From positions 19,029,608 through 19,093,607 of the forward strand of contig NC_088299.1 of the NCBI RefSeq assembly GCF_032854445.1: DNA of 64,000 nucleotides, read 5' to 3'. Source of the stretch: Liolophura sinensis. Lineage: Eukaryota > Mollusca > Polyplacophora > Chitonida > Chitonidae. The notes under the pieces are model-generated. The model saw only the letters and a program-made list of their open reading frames with translations, was not told the DNA's origin and did not search any database. This document shows positions 3,287 to 35,685 of the stretch, piece by piece; positions within the stretch are counted from its first letter, which is position 1, and each line of letters starts with the position of its first letter. A program made the translations under genes and the position numbers.

Positions 3287-3669
3287 CACATACATAGGTT
3301 TACCGGTGACCTAATACTACGTTCCTTCCCAGATTTAGCCAGATCGGGTGGGTAAGGGCTGTAATGCGAAAGGGTGGTTTTCAGTATGCTCGACAATAAA
3401 ACAAAATCAGTCTGTAGTTTTCTCTGATAACTCGAAGCTTTCACAACATAACTGGTTACAAATTATGTGTTCTTTAGATTTAATCTTGTTATGATACTAT
3501 GACAAATAAATTTATACGTGATTTCAGAGTGTTTTTTGATTATTTTCTACTGGCCTGGTATTAAGTCATATTTCAGGTTTAAAATTTTAGCCAATCTCAG
3601 CAAATAATACAGTTCTCCAAAGTCAAAGTATAACAACAGTCTTAGTTCATATTTAATATACTAGATCAT

Positions 3670-11802: not shown

Positions 11803-11879
11803 AAGTCTGTGCCAAGAAAAACAGAGGACTTTCAGTGGAGCCAAAATCAAGAAGCTATGGAGTTTGAATACTATTACGT
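11803..11879 (+). CDS. PPxY membrane protein, exon A (extracellular N-terminus and start of the membrane segment)
   Basis: The exon follows a pyrimidine-rich acceptor (TTTTTTGTCTGACTTTAATT..AAAG) and ends at TACGT|GTGAGT. The frame is open across all 77 bp. An ATG at 11857 in good context (G at -3, G at +4) would start the protein as MEFEYYYV. Alternatively the frame continues upstream (..KSVPRKTEDFQWSQNQEA..) from an unseen exon. The exon ends with two bases of a codon (GT), and exon B begins with the third (A), giving Val at the junction and a continuous YYYVVIILVV membrane segment. This phase match is the main evidence that 11803, 15906 and 20504 belong to one gene. Starting at 11857, the three exons give 138 residues. 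The YYY before the membrane segment recalls WBP1/WBP1L, but the Cys-rich domain of those proteins is not seen here. Confidence 0.5.
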
Positions 11880-13329
11880 GTGAGTATACTTTTAAGTAAT
11901 GTAGTGTACACATTGTCAGTGATAAAACTTCCATGTGAAATATTTTTGAGTACCGTACAGTTTAAAAAACAAATCAAAATAAATTAATCTTCCAGCCTCT
12001 GTATGGTTACTACTTCATGTTCTACAGCCTATGTGTAATTCTTTGACATTATAATGCTTCCCACCAACTGACAGGCTGTGCACTGTTTTGTTTCACATTT
12101 TTAATTTGCTTACAAACATCAGATTGTACTTGTATGTTTAAAGTGAACATAAAGTCTGCCACTATATACACATAGAAAAAAAGATATAGGACAGTTACCA
12201 CAGAAAAATATGTAAAAAAATTCAGTAAAGTTTTGAAAGCTGAGAAGATGAAGTTCAGTATTGTGAATATAGCACTGACAGACAATTCACTCTGAGTAGC
12301 CATGTTGTAATAGCCTTATGAACTTGGCAAGTCACTAGCATTGAAGGCAACCTTTGATAATTGGCTGTCACGTCAAAAAACCTATTAGCTCTCGATTTCC
12401 AGTGTGGTTTCTTACAGTGGATAGACAGATATCGATGCAGTAAATTGGATTTTGCAGTTTAAGTGTTAAACTGGTGCATTTTGGACCACACATTTTGATG
12501 AGCACAGAACTGAGAAAGGCTGCCCATGTCACATTGCGTACAAGTTGAGCAGGAGACTACAGTAACTTGTCAGGGTGAGATAGCAAGAAAACCGCCTGGG
12601 GAGAGTCGTTGCTTGAAGAAAAATATTATGACTTTGCATCATTTTTCCAGAGCAAAGTCAAATTTATTATGAAAATATTGTCCCAAAATGTGAATGAAAG
12701 AGTCTGTTATCACTGATAAGGTCCTGCTATGATGAGTAAATTGCCTGAAGTCGGTACAGCTAGCTAGGCCAAATGCTTACACACATGCACAACAAGGACC
12801 AGCAGGACCACTGAAACAGGACACTTGTGTCCACGAACATCACTGTGACCTAGCACCAACCTGAAAGAAACATCAGGCCTTTCGAACAAGGAACAGAGCT
12901 GATACTCTTTGCTTGGGTACCAGGTGTTTTTGTTTGTATGTTCTCATTGTCACATTATTTAATACCGATTGTATGGTATAGCTCATATTTTGTGACCTCA
13001 CCTTAGATATTATTTATAACATGGCAAAATCACATCACCAAATGAGTGTCCAGGTACTGACGATTATTTGCTTCTAAATATTTTTAGAATATTTCTTGGA
13101 TACTACTGTGGTAATTAATTCAAATTAAGTGGCAGACTGTATATTCACTTTAAAAAAAATGTATTTGAGTTATATGTTTCTGTTTTGACAGTTATATAGT
13201 TTTGCTTTTTGTCTCATGGTTTAAACATGGTGTCACCACAATATGCTTGCAATAACATTAAAGGCAAAGAAAATACTAACATGATGTATCAGTTACATCA
13301 AAGATCAATGAACACACTGCAAGAAAATA
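11880..13329 (+). other. Intron A-B, non-repetitive part
   Basis: AT-rich intron sequence between the donor at 11880 and the start of the 50-bp array. No exon was recognised. An 84-codon minus-strand frame (12049-12303) is phenylalanine-rich through AT-rich DNA and is not supported. Confidence 0.45.
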
Positions 13330-15890
13330 GTTTAATGTCTCTGTTCACACATTTTCTCCTCTCCTGTCATCTCCTCTCATTCATCAATCCATTTTGACAC
13401 ATTCTTTCCTCTGCTAACATCTTCTCTCATAAATTCATCCATGTTCATACACTCTCTCCTCTCCTGACATGTCCTCTCATTCATCCATCAATCCATGTTC
13501 ACACAGTTTCTGCTCTCCTGACATCTCCTCTCATTTATCCATCCATGTTCACACATTATTTCCTCTCCTGGCATCTCCTCTCATTCATCCATCCATTTCC
13601 ACACATTCTCACCTTTCCTTACATCTCCTCTCATCCATCCATCCATTTTCACACATTCTCTCCTCTCCTGACACCTCCTCTCATTCATCCATCCATTTTA
13701 CACACTCTCTCCTTTCCTTACATCTCCTCTCATCCATCCATCCATTTTCGCACATTCTGTCCTTTCCTTACATCTCCTCTCATCCATCCATGCATTCATT
13801 TTCACACATTGTCTCCTCTCCTGACACCTCCTCTCATTCATCCATCCATTTTACACATTCTCTCCTTTCCTTACATCTCCTCTCATCCATCCATCCATTT
13901 TCGCACATTTTCTCCTCTCCTGACATCTCCTCTCATTCATCCATCCATTTTACACATTTTCTCCTCTCCTGACATCTCCTCTCATTCATTCATTCATTTT
14001 CACACATTCTCTTCTCTGTTGACATATTAAATTTATCCATCCATTTCCACACATTCTCTCCTCTCCTGACACCTCCTCTCATTCATCCATCCATTTTACA
14101 CATTCTCTCCTTTCCTTACATCTCCTCTCATCCATCCATCAATTTTCACACATTTTCTCCTCTCCTGACATCTCCTCTCATCCATCCATCCATCCATTTT
14201 TACACATTCTTTTCACTCCTGACATCTCTTCTCATTTATCAGTCCATATTCACACAATTTCTCCTCTCCTCACCTCTCCTCTCCTCTCATTCATCTATCC
14301 AATTTTACACATTCTCTCCTCTTCTAACATCTCTCATTTATTCATCCATGTTCACACATTCTCTCCTCTGTTGACATCTCCTCTCATTCATCCATCCAAT
14401 TTTACACATTCTCTCCTCTGTTGACATCTCCTCTCCTTCATTCTTCCATTTTCACACATTCTCTCCTCTCCTGACATCTCCTCTCATTCATCCATCCAAT
14501 TTTACACATTCTCTCCTCTGTTGACATCTCCTCTCCTTCATTCTTCCATTTTCACACATTCTCTCCTCTCCTGACATCTCCTATCATCCACCCATCCAAT
14601 TTTACACATTCCCTCTTCTCCTGACATCTCCTCTCCTCTCCTGACCCCTCCTCTCCTCTCCTGACCTCTCCTCTTATCCATCCATCCATTTCCACACATT
14701 CTCTCCTCTCCTGACATCTCCTCACCTTTCCTGACATCTCCTCACCTCTCCTGACACCTCTCTCATTCATCCATCCAATTTTACACAGTCTCTCCTTTCC
14801 TCTGATTCACCCATCCATCCATTTTGAAACATTCTTTCCTCTCCTGACATCTCCTCTCAATTATCCATCCATCTTCACATATTTTCTCCTCTCCTGACAT
14901 CTCCTCTCAACTATTTATCCATTTTCACACATTCTCTCTTTTCCTGACATCTCCTATGATGCATGCATCCATCCATGTTCACACATTCTCTCCTCCCCTG
15001 ACATCTCCTCTCATTTATCTATCCATTTTACAAATTCTCTCCTCTCCTGACATCTCCTCTCATTTATCCATCCATTTTCACACATTCTCTCCTCTACTGA
15101 CATCTCCTCCTATTTATTTATCCATTTTCACACACTCTCTCCTCTCCAAACATCTCCTCTCATACATTCACCCATGTTCACACATTTTCTCCTGTCCTGA
15201 CATCTCCTTTCATTTATTTATCCATTTTCACACACTCTCTCCTCTCCTGTCATCTCCTCTCATTCATCCATCCATTTTCACACATTCTTTCCTCTGCTGA
15301 CATCTCCTCTCATAAATTCATCCATGTTCATACACTCTCTCCTCTCCTGACATCTCCTCTCATACATTCATCCATGTTCACACATTCCCTCCTCTCCTGA
15401 CATCTCCTCTCATACATTCATCCATGTTCACACATTCTCTCCTCTGCTGACATCTTCTCTTTTTCATCCATCCAATTTTACACATACACTCCTCTGCTGA
15501 CATCTCATCTCATACATTCATCCATTTTCACAAACTCTCTCCTCTCCTGACATCTCCTCTCATCCATTCGTGCTTTTTCTCACATTCACACCTCTCCTGA
15601 CATATCTAGTTTATCCTTCCATTTTCACACAGTCACTCCTCTCCTGACATCTCCTCTGATCCATTCATATATTTTCACACATTCTCTTCTCTCCTGTCAT
15701 CTCCTCATCCACCTATCCATTTTCACACACTCTCTCCTCTCCTGACATCATCCATCCATCCAGTTTGACACATTCTCTCCTCTCCTCTGATTCATTGGTA
15801 CATCCATTTTCACACATTCACTCTTCACCTGACATGTTTCATTGGTACATCCATTTTCACACTTTCACTCCTCTCCTGACATGTCTCCTT
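13330..15890. repeat. ~50-bp pyrimidine-rich minisatellite, about 50 units
   Basis: The unit is close to CTCTCCTCTCCTGACATCTC followed by CTCTCATTCATCCATCCATT and TTCACACATT. The plus strand is mostly C and T with very little G. Each unit contains CTCCTGAC, a good match to an animal branch-point consensus, followed by a pyrimidine tract, but AG is rare. The last unit lies directly against exon B and seems to supply its branch point (CTCCTGAC at about 15871-15880, acceptor CAG at 15905). Sub-variants include CCTTTCCTTACATCTCC and CCTCTGTTGACATCTCC. The array fills about two thirds of intron A-B. Confidence 0.96.
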
Positions 15891-15905: not shown

Positions 15906-16059
15906 AGTGATCATACTTGTTGTTTTGAAGCTGTCTTTCTGGTCTTGTGTCTGCTACTTCCGGTCGCAAAAATCCCGCGCAGCCCGTGCAAATCAGCGAC
16001 TTGTCATTGTAGACAGTCACACTCGTCAAGGTGTCACGCCATTCCCTGCGCCTCACAAT
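15906..16059 (+). CDS. PPxY membrane protein, exon B (transmembrane segment and juxtamembrane basic region)
   Basis: Acceptor TTGTTGTTGTTGACAG|A and donor CACAAT|GTAAGT bound a 154-bp exon open in one frame. It encodes most of a single membrane span (VIILVVLKLSFWSCVCYF), then a basic stretch (RSQKSRAARANQR) that should lie on the cytosolic side by the positive-inside rule, then LVIVDSHTRQGVTPFPAPHN. The SCVCYFRSQKSR pattern resembles the junction after the membrane span in WBP1/WBP1L (Cys cluster, basic residues, Gln/Arg-rich). It enters in phase 2 and leaves in phase 0, matching its neighbours. Read-through of the donor meets a TGA within about 11 codons, so use of a downstream repeat donor would give a truncated product without PPxY motifs. 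The exon is walled in by tandem arrays on both sides. Family assignment is tentative; the membrane-exon call is firmer. Confidence 0.6.
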
Positions 16060-16084
16060 GTAAGTGCAGTTTGTATGTGCATCT

Positions 16085-19000
16085 GGATGTGACACCCACA
16101 TTGCTAGCACCTCACAATATACATGTAAGTACATCCAACACAGTCCTGCCCACCACCCACATTGTTTTCACCTCGCAGTATACATGTAAGTACATCAAAC
16201 ACAGTCCTGCCCACCACCCACATTGTTTTCACCTCACAGTATACATGTAAGTACATCCAGCACAATCCTGCCTACCACCCGCATTGTCTTCACCTCACAA
16301 TATACATGTAGGTACATCCAACACAGTCCTGCCCACCACCCACATTGTCTTCACCTCACAATATACATGTGAGTACATCCAACACAGTCCTGCCCACCAC
16401 CCACATTGTCTTCACCTCACAGTATACATGTAAGTACATCCATCACAGATCTGCCCACCACCCACATTGTCTTCACCTCACAATATACATGTGAGTACAT
16501 CCAACACAGTCCTGCCCACCACCCACATTGTCTTCACCTCACAGTATACATGTAAGTACATCCATCACAGATCTGCCCACCACCCACATTGTCTTCACCT
16601 CACAATATACATGTAAGCACATCCAACACAGTCCTGCCCACCACCCACATTGTCTTCACCTCACAGTATACATGTATACATGTAAGTACATCCATCACAG
16701 ATCTGCCCACCACCCACATTGTCTTCACCTCGCATACATCCAACACAGTCCTGCCAACCACCCTCAGTCTTCACCTCACATTATACATGTAAGTACATCC
16801 AACACAGTCCTGCCCACCACCCACATTGTCTTCACCTCACAGTATACATGTGAGTACACCCAACACAGTCCTGCCCACCACCCACAATGCCCTCACCTCA
16901 CAATATACATGTAAGTCCATCCAACACAGTCCTGCCCACCACCCGCATTGTTTTCACCTCACAATATACATGTAAGCACATCCAACACAGTCCTGCCCAC
17001 CACCCACAATGCCCTCACCTCACAATATACATATAAGTACATCGAACACAGTCCTGCCCTCCACCCACATTGTCTTCACATCGCAGTATACATGTAAGCA
17101 CATCCAACACAGTCCTGCCCTCCACCAACATTGTTTTCACCTCGCAGTATACATGTAAGTACATCAAACACAGTCCTGCCCACCACCCGCATTGTTTTCA
17201 CCTCGCAGTATACATGTAAGTACATCCAACACAGTCCTGCCCTCCACCCACATTGTTTTCACCTCGCAGTATACATGTAAGTACATCAAACACAGTCCTG
17301 CCCACCACCCACATTGTTTTCACCTCGCAGTATAGATGTAAGCACATCCAACACAGTCCTGCTCTCCACCCACATTGTTTTCACCTCGCAGTATACATGT
17401 AAGTACATCAAACACAGTCCTGCCCACCATGCGCATTGTTTTCACCTCGCAGTATACATGTCAGTACATCAAACACAGTCCTGCCCACCACCCGCATTGT
17501 TTTCACCTCGCAGTATAGATGTAAGCACATCCAACACAGTCCTGCCCACCACCCACATTGTCTTCACCTCGCAGTATACATGTAAACACATCCAACACAG
17601 TTCTGCCCTCCACTAACATTGTTTTCACCTCGCAGTATACATGTAAGTACATCAAACACAGTCCTGCCTATCACCGACATTGTCTTCACCTCACATTGTA
17701 GCTGTAAGTACATCCAACACAGTCCTGCCCACCAGCCACAAAGTCCTCACCTCATAATATACATGTAAGCACATCCAACACAGATCTGTCCACCACCCAC
17801 ATTGTTTTCACTTCGCAGTATACATGTAAGTACATCCAGCACAATCCTGCCCTCCACCCACATTGTCTTCACCTCGCCATTATACATGTAAGTACATCCA
17901 TCACAGATCTGCCCACCACCCACATTTTCACCTCGCAGTATACATGTAAGTACATCTAACACAATCCTGCCTACCACCTACATTGTCTTTAACTCGCCAT
18001 TATACATGTAAGTACATCCATCACAGATCTGCCCACCACCCACATTTTCACCTCGCAGTATACATGTAAGTACATCCAACACAGTCCTAGCCACCACCCA
18101 CATTATCTTCACCTCGCAGTATACATGTAAGTACATCCAACACAGTCCTGCCCACCACCCACATTGCTAGCACCTCACAATATACATGTAAGTACATCCA
18201 ACACAGTCTTGCCCTCTACCAACATTGTCTTCACCTCACACTATACATGTAAGTACATCGAACACAGATCTGCCCACCACCCACGTTGTTTTCACCTCGC
18301 AGTATACATGTAAGTACATCCAGCACAATCCTGCCCTCCACCCACATTGTCTTCACCTCGCAGTATACATGTAAGTCCATTCAACACAGATCTGCCCACC
18401 ACCCACATTGTCTTCACCTCACCATATACATGTAAGTACATCCAACACAATCCTGCCCACCACCCACAGTCTTCACCTCACAATGTGCATGTAAGTACAT
18501 CCAACACAGTCCTGCCCACCACCCACATTGTTTTCATCTCACAATATACATGTAAGTACATCCAACACAATCCTGCCCACCACCCTCATTGTCTTCACCT
18601 CGCAGTATACATGTAAGCACATCGAACACAATCCTGCCCTCCACCCACATTGTCTTCACCTCGCAGTATACATGTAAGTCCATTCAACACAGATCTGCCC
18701 ACCACCCACATTGTCTTCACCTCACCATATACATGTAAGTACATCCAACACAATCCTGCCCACCACCCACAGTCTTCACCTCACAATGTGCATGTAAGTA
18801 CATCCAACACAGTCCTGCCCACCACCCACATTGTTTTCATCTCACAATATACATGTAAGTACATCCAACACAGTCCTGCCCAGCACCCACATTGTCTTCA
18901 CCTCACATTATACATGTAAGCACATCGAACACAATCCTGCCCACCACCCACATTGCTAGTACCTCACAATATACATGTAAGTATATCCAACACATTCCTG

Positions 19001-20105
19001 CACACCACCCACATTGTCTTCACCTCACAATATACATGTAAGCGCATCCAACACAGTCTTGCCCACCACCCACATTGCTAGCATGTCACAATATACATGT
19101 AAGCATATCCAACACAGTCCTGCCCACCACCCACATTGCTAGCACGTCACAATATACATGTAAGCACATCCAACACAGTCCTGCCCACCACCCACATTGC
19201 TAGCACCTCACAATATACATGTAAGCACATCCAACACAGTCCTGCCCACCACCCACATTGCTAGCACGTCAGAATATACATGTAAGCACATCCAACACAG
19301 TCCTGCCCACCACCCACATTGCTAGCACGTCACAATATACATGTAAGCACATCCAACACAGTCCTGCCCACCACCCACATTACTAGCACCTCACAATATA
19401 CATGTAAGCACATCCAACACAATCCTGCCCACCACCCACATTGCTAGCACCTCACAATATACATGTAAGCACATCCAACACAGTCCTGCCCACCACCCAC
19501 ATTGCTAGCACGTCACAATATACATGTAAGCACATCCAACACAGTCCTGCCCACCACCCACATTGCTAGCACCTCACAATATACATGTAAGCACATCCAG
19601 CACAGTCCTGCCCACCACCCACATTGTCTTCACCTCACAATATACATGTAAGCAAATCCAACACAGTCCTGCCCACCACCCACATTGCTAGCACGTCACA
19701 ATATACATGTAAGCACATCCAACACAGTCCTGCCCACCACCCACATTGCTAGCATGTCACAATATACATGTAAGCACATCCAACACAGTCCTGCCCACCA
19801 CCCACATTGCTAGCACCTCACAATATACATGTAAGCACATCCAACACAGTCCTGCCCACCACCCACATTGCTAGCACCTCACAATATACATGTAAGCAAA
19901 TCCAACACAGTCCTGCCCACCACCCACATTGCTAGCACCTCACAATATACATGTAAGCAAATCCAACACAGTCCTGCCCACCACCCACATTGCTAGCACG
20001 TCACAATATACATGTAAGCACATCCAACACAGTCCTGCCCACCACCCACATTGCTAGCACATCACAATATACATGTAAGCACATCCAACACAGTCCTGCC
20101 CGCAT
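16085..20105. repeat. 61-bp minisatellite carrying splice-donor-like sequence, about 66 units
   Basis: The unit is CACCTCACAATATACATGTA, AGTACATCCAACACAGTCCT, GCCCACCACCCACATTGTCT, T. Its CCTCACAAT..GTAAGT core matches the end of exon B plus its donor (CCTCACAAT|GTAAGT) with ATACAT inserted. Two zones are visible: 16085 to about 18940 has TTTTCACCTCGCAG or TCTTCACCTCACAG before TATACATGTAAGT; 18940-20105 has the more homogeneous GCTAGCACCTCACAATATAC and GTAAGCAC. The block starting CAGTATACATGTAAGTCCAT at 18361 recurs at 18664, a 303-bp (five-unit) higher-order repeat. The array fills about 90 percent of intron B-C. Confidence 0.96.
18361..18960. repeat. Two-copy 303-bp higher-order repeat inside the 61-bp array
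   Basis: Five consecutive 61-bp units, marked by the GTAAGTCCATTCAACACAGA variant and a CAATGTGCATGTAAG variant, are duplicated nearly identically at 18361 and 18664. This points to recent unequal exchange or replication slippage over several units at once. Confidence 0.9.
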
Positions 20106-20335
20106 CTGTCAGGATGTCACAACACATAGTCTGCACTGTCATGATGTCTTTCTAGGATTCGTTGTCTCTCAGTGTTGCTGTAACACATTTACACGTGCGT
20201 TGTGTGCATTGTACCTGTATGTTTACTTGTATTGTGCAGCTAATCAAGAATGGTGAATTCAACAGCTAAGCCAAGGAGTAGACAGTATAAAGAACGTGGA
20301 TGAGTTAGTTTGTAGTAGTGTTTGAGTAAGGTGAC

Positions 20336-20500
20336 AATGTCTGACATTTGATTGCCCTTGTTTGACATTGGAATTGCCCTTGTCTGAGATTTGGATTGCC
20401 TGTGATTTGACATTTGGATTGCCCTTGTCTGAGATTTGGGTTGCCCTTGTTTGACATTTGGATTGCCCTTGTTTGACATTTGGATTGCCCTTGTTTGCTT
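20336..20500. repeat. 22-bp minisatellite forming the acceptor region of exon C
   Basis: About 7 copies of GCCCTTGTTTGACATTTGGA plus TT, with TCTGAGATTTGG and GTGATTTGACATT variants. The final partial copy becomes GCCCTTGTTTGCTTTAG, the 3' splice site of exon C, so the pyrimidine tract of that site is itself the last repeat unit. Confidence 0.92.
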
Positions 20501-20503
20501 TAG

Positions 20504-20743
20504 GACCGATCAGTCATTGTGGACCACGAGGAACCTCCAGCTACATCCACGGGTCCACCGTCTTACACTGAAGTAATGACAGCTAACCCCCAGGGAAGAG
20601 AGGACAAGCCCCCGTCCTACAGCCAGGCAGTGGAGGGGCATCAGGAAGAGGACAGTAGGACGCCCATCCCCCCACATTTCACACCACAACCCCCATCCAC
20701 CAGATCTTCAGTGGAAGTAACCGGCGCACAGGCTAACGCTTAA
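20504..20743 (+). CDS. PPxY membrane protein, last exon (cytosolic tail with two PPSY motifs)
   Basis: After TTTGCTTTAG the frame is open for 79 codons to TAA at 20741. The exon starts in phase 0, as required by exon B, so the joined sequence reads ..PAPHN|DRSVIVDHEEPPATST... The tail is rich in Pro, Ser, Thr and Glu, with two PPxY motifs, GPPSYTEVM and KPPSYSQAV (residues 77-80 and 95-98 counting from ATG 11857). PPxY motifs bind WW domains, including those of NEDD4-type ubiquitin ligases and YAP-like proteins. A short membrane protein with such a tail is typical of adaptors of the WBP1, VOPP1 or PRR7 type. There is no other domain. An ORF that retains this composition between non-coding repeats is good evidence of a real exon. 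The name is left open. Confidence 0.65.
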   Translation, partial: DRSVIVDHEEPPATSTGPPSYTEVMTANPQGREDKPPSYSQAVEGHQEEDSRTPIPPHFTPQPPSTRSSVEVTGAQANA

Positions 20744-28134: not shown

Positions 28135-31100
28135 GTATCCATCACTCGCAAACCATCCCACTTCAGCCAGCATCAACCATCCCACTTCAGCCAGCATCAA
28201 CCATCCCACTTCAGCCAGCATCAACCATTCCACTTCAGCCAGCATCAACCATCCCACCTCAGTCAGCATCAACCATCCCACTTCAGCCAGCATCAACCAC
28301 CCCACTTCAGCCAGCATCAACCATCCCACTTCAGCCAACATCAACCATTCTACTTCAGCCAGCATCAACCATCCCACTTCAGCCAGCATCAACCATCCTA
28401 CTTCAGCCAGCATCAACCATCCCACTTTAGCCAGCATCAACCATCCCACTTCAGCCAGCATCAACCATCCCACTTCAGCCAGCATCAACCATCCCACTTT
28501 AGCCAGCATCAACCATCCCACCTCAGCCAGCATCAACCATCCCACTTCAGCCAGCATCAACCATCCCATTTCAGCCAGCATCAACCATCCCACTTCAGCC
28601 ATCATCGAACATCCCACTTCAGCCAGCATCAACCATCCTACCTCAGCCATCATCAAACATCCCACATCAGCCATCATCAACCATCCCACTTCAGCCAGCA
28701 TCAACCATCCCACTTCAGCCATCATCAACCATCCCATTTCAGCCAGCTTCAACCATCCCACTTCAGCCAGCATCAACCATTCCACTTCAGACAGCATCAA
28801 CCATACCACTTCAGCCAGCATCAACCATCCCACCTCAGCTAACATCAACCATCCCACTTCAGCCAGCATCAACCATCCCACTTCAGCAAGCATCAACCAT
28901 CCCACTTCAGCAAGCATCAACCATCCCACTTCAGCCATCATCAACCATCCCACTTCAGCAAGCATCAACCATCCTACTTCAGCCATCATCAACCATCCTA
29001 CTTCAGCCATCATCAACCATCTTACCTCAGCCAGCATCAACCATCCCACTTTAGCCAGCATCAACCATTCTACTTCAGCCAGCATCAACCATCCTACCTC
29101 AGCCATCATCAACCATCCCACTTCAGCCAGCATCAACCATTCTACTTCAGCCAGCATCAACCATCCCACCTCAGCCATCATCAACCATCCCACTTCAGCC
29201 AGCATCAACCATCCCACTTCAGCCAGCATCAACCATCCCACTTCAGCCAGCATCAACCATTCCACTTTAGCCAGCATCAACCATCCCACCTCAGCCAGCA
29301 TCAACCATCCCACTTCAGCCAGCATCAACCATCCCACATCAGCCAGCATCAACCATCCCACTTCAGCCAGCATCAACCATTCCACTTCAGCCAGCATCAA
29401 CCATCCCACCTCAGCCAGCATCAACCATCCCACTTCAGCCAGCATCAACCACCCCACTTCAGCCAGCATCAACCATCCCACTTTAGCCAACATCAACCAT
29501 TCCACTTTAGTTAATATCAACCAGTCCACTTCAGCCAGTATCAACCATTCCACTTCAGCTAACATCAACCATCGCATTTCAGCCAGCATCAACCATCCCA
29601 CTTCAGCCAGCATCAACCATTCCACTTCAGCCAGCATCAACCATCCCACCTCAGCCAGCATCAACCATCCCACTTCAGCCAGCATCAACCATTCCACTTC
29701 ATCCATCATCAACCATCCCACTTCAGCCAGCATCAACCATCCCACTTCAGCCAGCATCAACCATCCCACTTCAGCCAGCATCAACCTTTCCACTTTAGCC
29801 AATATCAACCATTCCACTTTAGTTAATATCAACCAGTCCACTTCAGCCAGTATCAACCATTCCACTTCAGCTAACATCAACCATCCCACTTCAGCCAGCA
29901 TCAACCATCCCACTTCAGCCAGCATCAACCATCCCACTTCAGCCAGCATCAACCATCCCACTTCAGCCAGCATCAACCTTTCCACTTTAGCCAACATCAA
30001 TCATTCCACTTTAGTCAATATCAACCAGTCCACTTCAGCCAGTATCAATCATTCCACTTTAGTCAATATCAGCCAGTCCACTTCAGCCAGTATCAACCAT
30101 TCCACTTCAGCTAACATCAACCATCCCACTTCAGCCAGCATCAACCATCCCACTTCAGCCAGCATCAACCATTCCACTTCAGCCAGCATCAACCATCCCA
30201 CCTCAGCCAGCATCAACCATCCCACTTCAGCCAGCATCAACCATTCCACTTCAGCCAGCATCAACCATCCCACTTCAGCCAGCATCAACCATTCCACTTC
30301 AGCCATCATCGAACATCCCACTTCAGCCAGCATCAACCATCCCACTTCAGCCAGCATCAACCATCCCACATCAGCCAGCATCAACCATCCCACTTCAGCC
30401 AGCATCCAGCATCAACCATCGCATTTCAGCCAGCATCAACCATCCCACCTCAGCCAGCATCAACCATCCCACTTCAGCCAGCATCAACCATCCCACATCA
30501 GCCAGCATCAACCATCCCACTTCAGCCAGCATCACCCATCCCACTTCAGGCAGCATCAACCATCCCACTTCAGCCAACATCAACCATCCCACTTCGGCCA
30601 GCATCAACCATCCCACTTTAGCCAGCATCAACCATCCCACTTCAGCCAGCATCAACCGTTCCACTTCAGCCAGCATCAACCATCCCACTTCAGCCAGCAT
30701 CAACCATCCTACCTCAGCCAACATCAACCATCCCACTTCAGCCAGCATCAACCATTCCACTTCAGCCAGCATCAACCATCCCACTTCAGCCAGCATCAAC
30801 CATCCCACCTCAGCCAGCATCAACCATCCCACTTCAGCCAGCATCAACCATTCCACTTCAGCCAGCATCAACCATCCCACTTCAGCCAGCATCAACCATC
30901 CCACTTCAGCCAGCATCGAACATCCCACTTCAGCCAGCATCAACCATCCCACTTCAGCCAGCATCAACCATCCCACATCAGCCAGCATCAACCATCCCAC
31001 TTCAGCCAGCATCCAGCATCAACCATCGCATTTCAGCCAGCATCAACCATCCCACCTCAGCCAGCATCAACCATCCCACTTCAGCCAGCATCAACCATCC

Positions 31101-34100
31101 CACATCAGCCAGCATCAACCATCCCACTTCAGCCAGCATCACCCATCCCACTTCAGGCAGCATCAACCATCCCACTTCAGCCAACATCAACCATCCCACT
31201 TCGGCCAGCATCAACCATCCCACTTTAGCCAGCATCAACCATCCCACTTCAGCCAGCATCAACCGTTCCACTTCAGCCAGCATCAACCATCCCACTTCAG
31301 CCAGCATCAACCATCCTACCTCAGCCAACATCAACCATCCCACTTCAGCCAGCATCAACCATTCCACTTCAGCCAGCATCAACCATCCCACTTCAGCCAG
31401 CATCAACCATCCCACTTCAGGCAGCATCACCCATCCCACTTTAGGCAGCATCAATCTTTCCACTTTAGCCAACATCAACCATTCCACTTTAGTCAATATT
31501 AACCAGTCCACTTCAGCCAGTATCAACCATTCCACTTTAGCCAACATCAACCATTCCACTTCAGCTAACATCAACCATCCCACTTCAGCCAGCATCAACC
31601 ATCCCACTTCAGCCAGCATCAACCATCCCACCTCAGCCAGCATCAACCATCCCACTTCAGCCAGCATCAACCACCCCACTTCAGCCAGCATCAACCATCC
31701 CACTTTAGCCAACATCAACCATTCCACTTTAGTTAATATCAACCAGTCCACTTCAGCCAGTATCAACCATTCCACTTCAGCTAACATCAACCATCGCATT
31801 TCAGCCAGCATCAACCATCCCACTTCAGCCAGCATCAACCATTCCACTTCAGCCAGCATCAACCATCCCACCTCAGCCAGCATCAACCATCCCACTTCAG
31901 CCAGCATCAACCATTCCACTTCATCCATCATCAACCATCCCACTTCAGCCAGCATCAACCATCCCACTTCAGCCAGCATCAACCATCCCACTTCAGCCAG
32001 CATCAACCTTTCCACTTTAGCCAATATCAACCATTCCACTTTACTTAATATCAACCAGTCCACTTCAGCCAGTATCAACCATTCCACTTCAGCTAACATC
32101 AACCATCCCACTTCAGCCAGCATCAACCATCCCACTTCAGCCAGCATCAACCATCCCACTTCAGCCAGCATCAACCATCCCACTTCAGCCAGCATCAACC
32201 TTTCCACTTTAGCCAACATCAATCATTCCACTTTAGTCAATATCAACCAGTCCACTTCAGCCAGTATCAATCATTCCACTTTAGTCAATATCAACCAGTC
32301 CACTTCAGCCAGTATCAACCATTCCACTTCAGCTAACATCAACCATCCCACTTCAGCCAGCATCAACCATCCCACTTCAGCCAGCATCAACCATTCCACT
32401 TCAGCCAGCATCAACCATCCCACCTCAGCCAGCATCAACCATCCCACTTCAGCCAGCATCAACCATTCCACTTCAGCCAGCATCAACCATCCCACTTCAG
32501 CCAGCATCAACCATTCCACTTCAGCCATCATCGAACATCCCACTTCAGCCAGCATCAACCATCCCACTTCAGCCAGCATCAACCATTCCACTTCAGCCAG
32601 CATCAACCATCCCACCTCAGCCAGCATCAACCATCCCACTTCAGCCAGCATCAACCATTCCACTTCAGCCAGCATCAACCATCCCACTTCAGCCAGCATC
32701 AACCATTCCACTTCAGCCATCATCGAACATCCCACTTCAGCCAGCATCAACCATCCCACTTCAGCCAGCATCAACCATCCCACATCAGCCAGCATCAACC
32801 ATCCCACTTCAGCCAGCATCCAGCATCAACCATCGCATTTCAGCCAGCATCAACCATCCCACCTCAGCCAGCATCAACCATCCCACTTCAGCCAGCATCA
32901 ACCATCCCACATCAGCCAGCATCAACCATCCCACTTCAGCCAGCATCACCCATCCCACTTCAGGCAGCATCAACCATCCCACTTCAGCCAACATCAACCA
33001 TCCCACTTCGGCCAGCATCAACCATCCCACTTTAGCCAGCATCAACCATCCCACATCAGCCAGCATCAACCGTTCCACTTCAGCCAGCATCAACCATCCC
33101 ACTTCAGCCAGCATCAACCATCCTACCTCAGCCAACATCAACCATCCCACTTCAGCCAGCATCAACCATTCCACTTCAGCCAGCATCAACCATCCCACTT
33201 CAGCCAGCATCAACCATCCCACCTCAGCCAGCATCAACCATCCCACTTCAGCCAGCATCAACCATTCCACTTCAGCCAGCATCAACCATCCCACTTCAGC
33301 CAGCATCAACCATCCCACTTCAGCCAGCATCGAACATCCCACTTCAGCCAGCATCAACCATCCCACTTCAGCCAGCATCAACCATCCCACATCAGCCAGC
33401 ATCAACCATCCCACTTCAGCCAGCATCCAGCATCAACCATCGCATTTCAGCCAGCATCAACCATCCCACCTCAGCCAGCATCAACCATCCCACTTCAGCC
33501 AGCATCAACCATCCCACATCAGCCAGCATCAACCATCCCACTTCAGCCAGCATCACCCATCCCACTTCAGGCAGCATCAACCATCCCACTTCAGCCAACA
33601 TCAACCATCCCACTTCGGCCAGCATCAACCATCCCACTTTAGCCAGCATCAACCATCCCACTTCAGCCAGCATCAACCGTTCCACTTCAGCCAGCATCAA
33701 CCATCCCACTTCAGCCAGCATCAACCATCCTACCTCAGCCAACATCAACCATCCCACTTCAGCCAGCATCAACCATTCCACTTCAGCCAGCATCAACCAT
33801 CCCACTTCAGCCAGCATCAACCATCCCACTTCAGGCAGCATCACCCATCCCACTTTAGGCAGCATCAATCTTTCCACTTTAGCCAACATCAACCATTCCA
33901 CTTTAGTCAATATTAACCAGTCCACTTCAGCCAGTATCAACCATTCCACTTTAGCCAACATCAACCATTCCACTTCAGCTAACATCAACCATCCCACTTC
34001 AGCCAGCATCAACCATCCCACTTCAGCCAGCATCAACCATTCCACTTCAGCCAGCATCAACCATTCCACTTTAGCCAACATCAACCATTCCACTTTAGTC

Positions 34101-35685
34101 AATATCAACCAGTCCACTTCAGCCAGTATCAACCATTCCACTTTAGCCAACATCAACCATTCCACTTCAGCTAACATCAACCATCCCACTTCAGCCAGCA
34201 TCAACCATCCCACTTCAGCCAGCATCAACCATTCCACTTCAGCCAGCATCAACCATCCCACCTCAGCTAACATCAACCATCCCACTTCAGCCAGCTTCAA
34301 CCATCCCACTTCAGCCAGCATCCAGCATCAACCATCGCATTTCAGCCAGCACCAACCATCCCACTTCAGCCAGCATCAACCATTCCACTTCAGCCAGCAT
34401 CAACCTTTCCACCTCAGCCAGCATCAACCATTCCACTTCAGCCAGCATCAACCATCCCACCTCAACCAGCATCAACCATCCCACTTCAGCCAGCATCAAC
34501 CATCCCACTTCAGCCAGCATCCAGCATCAACCATCGCATTGCAGCCAGCACCAACCATCCCACTTCAGCCAGCATCAACCATTCCACTTTAGCCAGCATC
34601 AACCTTTCCACCTCAGCCAGCATCAACCATTCCACTTCAGCCAGCATCAACCATCCCACCTCAACCAGCATCGACCATCCCACTTTAGCCAGCATCAACC
34701 ATCCCACTTCAGCCAGCATCAAACATCCCACATCAGCCAGCATCAACCATTCCACTTCAGCCAGCATCAACCATTCCACTTTAGTCAATATCAACCAGTC
34801 CACTTCAGCCAGTATCAACCATTCCACTTTAGCCAACATCAACCATTCCACTTCAGCTAACATCAACCATCCCACATCAGCCAGCATCAACCATTCCACT
34901 TTAGCCAACATCAACCATTCCACTTTAGTCAATATCAACCAGTCCACTTCAGCCAGTATCAACCATTCCACTTTAGCCAACATCAACCATTCCACTTCAG
35001 CTAACATCAACCATCCCACTTCAGCCAGCATCAACCATCCCACTTCAGCCAGCATCAACCATTCCACTTCAGCCAGCATCAACCATCCCACCTCAGCTAA
35101 CATCAACCATCCCACTTCAGCCAGCTTCAACCATCCCACTTCAGCCAGCATCCAGCATCAACCATCGCATTTCAGCCAGCACCAACCATCCCACTTCAGC
35201 CAGCATCAACCATTCCACTTTAGCCAGCATCAACCTTTCCACCTCAGCCAGCATCAACCATTCCACTTCAGCCAGCATCAACCATCCCACCTCAACCAGC
35301 ATCAACCATCCCACTTCAGCCAGCATCAACCATCCCACTTCAGCCAGCATCCAGCATCAACCATCGCATTTCAGCCAGCACCAACCATCCCACTTCAGCC
35401 AGCATCAACCATTCCACTTTAGCCAGCATCAACCTTTCCACCTCAGCCAGCATCAACCATTCCACTTCAGCCAGCATCAACCATCCCACCTCAACCAGCA
35501 TCGACCATCCCACTTTAGCCAGCATCAACCATCCCACTTCAGCCAGCATCAAACATCCCACATCAGCCAGCATCAACCATTCCACTTCAGCCAGCATCAA
35601 CCATTCCACTTCAGCCAGCATCAACCATCCCACTTCAGCCAGCATCAACCATTCCACTTTAGCCATCATCAACCATTCTACATAA
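28135..35685. repeat. Giant 24-bp minisatellite, about 310 units, 7.5 kb, with nested higher-order repeats
   Basis: The unit is CATCAACCATCCCACTTCAG plus CCAG, with recurring variants (ATTCCAC, CATCATC, TTTAGTCAATATCAACC, CTAACATC). A 31-bp variant with an extra CATCCAG occurs eight times, at about 30401, 31008, 32815, 33422, 34317, 34516, 35147 and 35346. The spacings are 607, 1807, 607, 895, 199, 631 and 199 bp, so 607-bp and 199-bp blocks are duplicated and a block of about 2.4 kb (30401 to 32815) is duplicated as a whole. Because 24 is a multiple of 3, long frames are open on both strands (ASINHPTS-type on plus, MLAEVGWL-type on minus). Each 31-bp unit shifts both frames, and no start, splice or domain signal supports translation. 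Confidence 0.97.

Follow-up and report, generated by a model that had tools for sequence, protein, structure and literature searches.

Given that the intron between two inferred exons of a chiton gene is largely filled by a 61-bp minisatellite whose units carry donor-like hexamers, the question arises whether this array was amplified from the gene's own 5' splice junction. The locus lies in a window of 64 kb (the whole stretch of DNA analyzed here) on a 19,479,325-bp contig of a genome of 609 Mb in 632 contigs; the assembly was first published under the name Liolophura japonica (PMC11068029), and the species name was afterwards corrected to L. sinensis (PMC12441733). The scenario that we favor, with a probability of about 0.72, is that the array was seeded by a tandem duplication over the 5' splice junction of the exon denoted B below, with the original exon and donor left intact, the first donor used and the array tolerated rather than selected. 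The host gene and the repeats within it are delineated as follows.

11803..11879 (approximate), plus strand: inferred exon A, with AG just ahead of 11803 and GTGAGT at 11880; ends set by eye
13344..15882, plus strand: 50-bp pyrimidine-rich array in the intron before exon B (TRF), ending 23 bp upstream of exon B
15906..16059, plus strand: inferred exon B, encoding a membrane segment; phase 0 junction to exon C
16093..20101, plus strand: 61-bp minisatellite of 66 units (TRF and unit segmentation)
20338..20497, plus strand: 22-bp array (TRF), ending 6 bp upstream of exon C
20504..20743, plus strand: inferred exon C, with two PPSY motifs and a stop codon in the translation

The likely start codon is an ATG at 11863, inside exon A, and the reading frame from exon A into exon B reads MEFEYYYVVIIL; the exon joins tried by translation used ends of exon A slightly different from those given above. 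The joined protein of 138 residues resembles the Pfam family WBP-1 with an E-value of 4.9e-4, under the curated cut-off, and the name should be taken as no more than a lead. A comparison of this protein with the genome recovered exons B and C and, on contig C7, one weak relative (E 0.04), which contains a membrane-like segment, PPSY/PPPY motifs and a stretch that we take to be similar to LDL-receptor-A. The 50-bp and 22-bp arrays seem to provide the pyrimidine tracts for exons B and C, respectively. Tandem arrays make up 40% of the window compared to 6% of 20 random 10-kb stretches, and the window sits near the end of its scaffold. Another large array (24-bp unit, about 311 copies, 28151-35676) leaves several frames open, up to 1041 codons. 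No match to Rfam was detected in the window at gathering scores, and the predicted RNA folding of 16000-16299 is not more stable than that of shuffled sequences (z +1.19).

The intron between exons B and C (16060-20503) is 4444 bp long, of which the 61-bp array occupies 90%, as the preliminary description of this DNA had proposed; when the 22-bp array is added, tandem repeats account for about 94% of the intron. The unit is exactly 61 bp long in 56 of the 66 cases. A donor hexamer is present in 61 of the 66 units (GTAAGT in 32, GTAAGC in 26 and GTGAGT in 3). Exon B indeed ends with CCTCACAAT, its last nine bases, directly followed by GTAAGT (16059/16060). The claim that every unit contains the full core fails: CCTCACAAT occurs in 21 of the 66 units, many others read CCTCGCAGT in its place, and the complete core, CCTCACAATATACATGTAAGT/C, is exact in 15 units (4 + 11). 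Similarly, the array starts 33 bp past the donor rather than about 25 bp. The most uniform of the five blocks of the array is the last one (units 19006-20043), with a mean identity of 0.954 and GTAAGC as its donor hexamer. Both edges of the array carry GCTAGC or CACAAT variants, and CACAAT is found in exon B as well. In 22 units (16154-18700), TTCACCTCRCAG is followed, after about 7 bases, by the donor, an arrangement that resembles a 54-nt intron with a 7-nt exon. The organization of recursive (zero-length exon) splice sites, with AG directly followed by GTAAG, was not observed in the array, seven bases such as TATACAT separating TTCACCTCRCAG from the donor in these 22 units. The 13-mer GTAAGTACATCCA, which is common to this array and another one, occurs at 54 places, mostly in those two arrays, compared to 55 for the control, and was taken as a chance match.

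The similarity between the junction and the unit was assessed in alignments against shuffled sequences, for which the following features are relevant.

16031..16092, plus strand: junction region, probably a degenerate 'unit zero' consisting of exon tail, donor and 33 bp, delineated from the alignment tests
16060..16065, plus strand: presumed true donor GTAAGT, U1 duplex -6.5 kcal/mol
16090..16092, plus strand: first in-frame stop codon (TGA) encountered if the true donor is skipped, ten codons past exon B and 30 nt beyond the exon end

When the last 30 bp of the exon and the first 33 bp of the intron were aligned with the unit, the score was 26.5 compared to 13.9 +- 2.4 for shuffles, and none of 2000 query shuffles and 6 of 2000 unit shuffles scored as well; with 50 bp of the exon, 13/2000 and 12/2000 did. 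The shorter alignment of 15 bp of exon plus 20 bp of intron, suggested in the preliminary description, was equalled by 1/2000 and 2/2000 shuffles. The junction resembles the unit beyond shuffled expectation, but modestly so. The exon tail alone, compared to the unit consensus, was matched by 93/2000 query shuffles for 30 bp and 326/2000 for 60 bp, and the 33 intronic bases alone by 162/2000, the spacer having no clear similarity of its own. Against the real first 260 bp of the intron, the exon tail was equalled by 14/1000 shuffles (30 bp) and 72-90/1000 (60 bp); it fits the first unit with its flank better than the consensus (23.0 vs 20.0). In the rest of the 64 kb, 66 of 23,946 overlapping windows score as well as the junction, a count that includes the junction's own overlapping windows. 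Among 504 donor-like sites located outside arrays in 264 kb, 2 equal the junction score (3 if just positions -30 to +6 are scored), and when the comparison is confined to GTAAGT, 1 of 126 other sites does (2 with the shorter scoring). None of these 504 sites shares the 9/9 upstream identity to the unit, and 8/9 is reached by 4.

The CCTCACAAT of the junction and that of the first unit are 59 bp apart, while the period of the array is 61. The register as such was dropped as evidence because the anchored test was equalled by 9-12/300 shuffles and out-of-register rotations scored higher (up to 30.5 vs 20.5). In 32 comparisons of the arrays of this gene with its junctions, the 61-bp unit and the exon B donor gave 0/500; the 50-bp unit with the exon B acceptor (4/500) and the 22-bp unit with the exon C acceptor (0/500) also scored highly, and in both of these comparisons the array overlaps the tested stretch. 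Two further pairs, the 61-bp unit with the exon A donor (22/500) and the intron-1 unit with the presumed exon-1 donor (38/500), were dropped. Taken by itself, this locus is suggestive of a junction origin and would leave the matter undecided.

Much clearer arrangements are found elsewhere in the genome. An exon tail of 18-60 bp recurs together with the donor as a downstream intronic array at eight other loci, and in six of the eight the exon is recognizable: TRPA1, DAB, RAPTOR, RPC1, maltase-glucoamylase and DUF4457. Two of these came from a random sample of 20 stretches of 10 kb, which were the first 20 in a set of 100 taken from two contigs. In one of them, L030 (3085-4501), a Disabled-like PTB domain is encoded by an exon (phmmer to DAB2, 3.1e-21) that terminates at 3301 with ...GACGAACGAACAAAG, continued across the junction by GTGAGTAA, and the final 60 bp of this exon reappear in a unit. 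In the other, L026 (520-2303), a TRPA1-like exon (1.8e-4) extends to 720, and the unit of 41 bp combines the final 26 bp of that exon with intron sequence. On scaffold 1 (C1), 3 of the first 12 GTAAGT arrays, grouped by eye from GTAAGT triples among the matches listed, are junction copies: L047, adjacent to a RAPTOR exon (5.8e-15), L050, adjacent to a DUF4457 exon (3.3e-15), and L040, where the open frame has no name and no Pfam match. Of the remainder, five have no exon at the edge as judged by eye (L045, L046, L048, L049 and L051), in three the array edge was not reached or an exon was not seen (L041, L042 and L043), and L044 was not counted, since its NAA60-like exon (5e-32) has a tail that matches the unit (0/1000) but the protein match stops before the repeat. 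The last three cases are among eight arrays with CAGGTAAGT pairs, which were hand-picked among the matches listed, some for their coding look, so that 3/8 is not a rate: L034 (RPC1, 3e-9), L036 (maltase-glucoamylase, 9.5e-25) and L032, an open frame without a name. L038 looks alike and was not counted because its exon tail was reached by 210/1000 shuffles; by eye, L033 and L039 were left uncounted, and no exon was seen at L035 and L037.

The exon tail without the donor, compared to the downstream repeat, was equalled by 0/1000 shuffles at L026, L030, L032, L034, L036, L047 and L050 (for L047, against one unit only, copied from the listing) and by 4/1000 at L040. With a raw score of 23.0, equal to that of the given locus, L040 bridges the given locus and the clearer ones. 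A search for stop-free frames across array edges yielded 71 candidates, the TRPA1-like and DAB-like ones among them. Junction amplification as a process in this genome is strongly supported by these eight loci; at the six whose exons belong to known protein families, copying proceeded from exon to array. The presence of the process at other loci raises the prior for a junction origin at the given locus, which we consider moderately supported. The original proposal that the array was amplified from its own 5' junction thus holds as far as the process is concerned, given the eight clearer loci, and with moderate strength at the locus; its weak points include the exon tail alone, which is not significant at 60 bp.

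By the measure of U1 pairing, 33 of the 62 scored unit donors are at least as strong as the true donor, so strength does not explain the presumed silence of the unit donors. At L026 and L030, the donor and its copies are mostly equal in U1 pairing. At L034 and L036, the donor of the exon itself (-8.3 kcal/mol) is weaker than the scored copies (-12.1 to -13.2 kcal/mol), and at L032 the copies that keep the GTAAAT donor of the exon have -8.3 and three of the seven listed copies -14.0 kcal/mol, although these three loci were selected for strong copies. Past the first donor, a stop codon follows within 11-30 nt at six of the seven loci computed (the given locus, L026, L030, L032, L034 and L038), so the use of a decoy would usually truncate the protein. 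The exception among the seven is L036, where the frame past the first donor stays open; its 39-bp unit (L036:637-761) keeps the frame open across the fetched part of the array, and whichever donor is used, copies would be added in frame.

The unit donors might nevertheless be functional alternatives whose regulated use yields a protein that lacks the PPSY motifs, or else an mRNA subject to nonsense-mediated decay. The early stop anticipated in the preliminary description does exist, the in-frame TGA standing ten codons past exon B, and the U1 pairing of the unit donors speaks in the same direction. Against such use, the conservation of the GTAAG core is not exceptional (rank 13 among 57 five-column windows), and at +6 the most frequent base, T, is present in just 54% of the 56 units that are exactly 61 bp long. 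Moreover, exon definition limits exon length, and exons extended to the later decoy donors would overshoot it. We regard such regulated use as very improbable. Still further down the scale, and scarcely credible, is the idea that the donors serve as a sink for U1 snRNP or, by telescripting, shield the intron from premature polyadenylation; the donor hexamer in 61 of the 66 units would provide for binding, but the 4444-bp intron contains neither AATAAA nor ATTAAA, so this earlier suggestion is unsupported.

Two other explanations concern the origin of the similarity. Under the first, the array is a minisatellite like any other within an intron, and the donor hexamer and the nine-base match to the exon end are in its unit by chance. 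Such coincidence gains from the controls because 2 of the 504 donor-like sites match equally well and 14-90/1000 shuffles reach the score of the exon tail when the donor is left out; furthermore, GTAAGT arrays are common without being in excess (11,067 triples genome-wide, below the 21,373 of the reversed control), and five of the first 12 on scaffold 1 in the matches listed have no exon at the edge. Conversely, none of the 504 sites reproduces the 9/9 upstream identity, and the process is demonstrated at other loci of the same genome, so that a chance origin seems unlikely to us, albeit deserving of attention. The reverse direction, in which the array is older and one of its edge units gave rise to the end of the exon and its donor (exonization), draws on the tail of exon B, PFPAPHN, which lies outside any recognized domain, so that conservation cannot tell the order of events. 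At the loci with recognizable exons, however, copying runs from exon to array, and we consider exonization improbable here.

Under the favored scenario, a tandem duplication would have spanned the donor junction, with the exon and the first donor keeping their place; the second copy would end up within the intron, free to expand and diverge, and the present junction would be the degenerate first copy of the array. The spliceosome would take the exon-proximal donor, leaving the downstream donors silent or almost so, and the duplication would be harmless to the mRNA because the first donor is used. Thus, we infer at this locus homology, the direction of copying, use of the first donor and neutrality, the last being the best supported of the roles that the preliminary description offered for the array. 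Among the cases of junction amplification, the given one is probably old and degenerate. A point against this scenario is that a 6-bp insertion has to be assumed.

The preliminary description knew of no described example, but one precedes it. Intron 7 of the human coagulation factor VII gene (F7) contains 37-bp highly homologous tandem repeats with the real 5' splice site in the first copy; the most upstream site alone is normally used, and cryptic downstream sites emerge upon its mutation (PMC6627357). As in F7, the chiton array is located at the donor end of the intron, here 33 bp past the donor, and carries donor-like sites in its repeats (61 of 66 units). For another F7 trait, the authentic donor within the first copy, the results at the given locus are divided (0/2000 and 6/2000 shuffles for the junction, but 14-90/1000 for the exon tail alone); at the other loci the trait is found (0/1000 at seven, 4/1000 at L040). 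Arrays of the F7 type are further characterized by a copy number that differs among individuals. Unlike in F7, the chiton array comprises 66 units, fills 90% of the intron and has a degenerate first copy, and the arrangement recurs across several unrelated genes of one genome. The given locus could be classed as a variant of this type, F7 being an instance of the principle in a single human gene. CeRep25B of C. elegans is likewise an intronic minisatellite linked to splicing motifs; it differs in being clustered on chromosomes III and II and in carrying regulator motifs, and it is not reported there to derive from a junction of its host gene (PMC4039745). In intron gain by tandem duplication, a duplication over an exon-intron boundary copies the splice signals, as at this locus, but creates a new intron, whereas in the chiton an existing intron is lengthened (PMC4974935). 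A new intron inside a former exon was not found at the locus, all copies lying within the single intron that separates exon B from exon C. Among the matches listed in the open literature, no paper on such arrays as a genome-wide class was found.

Given 3 clear cases among the 12 arrays listed over the initial 2.92 Mb of scaffold 1, some hundreds would be expected genome-wide, a rough estimate because the density of arrays varies by place, as between the window and the random stretches. Genome-wide word counts bear on the underlying tendency. For CAGGTAAGT, 9,807 single occurrences compare with 4,849 for the control; pairs at 20-60 bp number 695 vs 284 and pairs at 61-100 bp 995 vs 263, that is, 17% vs 11% pairs per single. 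The acceptor-like TTTTTCAGG has 12,516 singles vs 6,691, and 91 vs 53 pairs at 20-60 bp, that is, 0.73% vs 0.79% per single. These counts lean toward an asymmetry between donors and acceptors, which they fit and do not prove, given that the hits cluster in big arrays, that there was one control per word and that acceptors were counted at 20-60 bp only. Donor words show no clear enrichment in arrays, so junctions look tolerated rather than targeted.

On balance, we incline slightly toward a broader generalization, namely that intronic minisatellites in this genome have repeatedly been seeded by 5' splice junctions and that hundreds of introns have grown through an exon tail plus donor, since the rule that the first donor wins hides the duplications from the mRNA; donor junctions, but not acceptors, would then be a privileged, splicing-neutral entry for intron expansion. 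If so, this route of intron growth would recur, beyond the single human case, and several genes would be natural experiments on how the spliceosome settles on a single donor when dozens of comparable or stronger sites are present. Strength by itself cannot decide between the donors of these introns, so that the role of position becomes directly testable, and the predicted asymmetry between donor and acceptor junctions can be checked in any annotated genome. Finally, a 106-bp array with CAGGTAAGT on scaffold 1 (C1:67888017-67888871, minus strand), among the matches listed, has a unit that by eye reads AEDDEVLRVPIALAMVKLLQSLP in one frame and may represent another amplified exon end.
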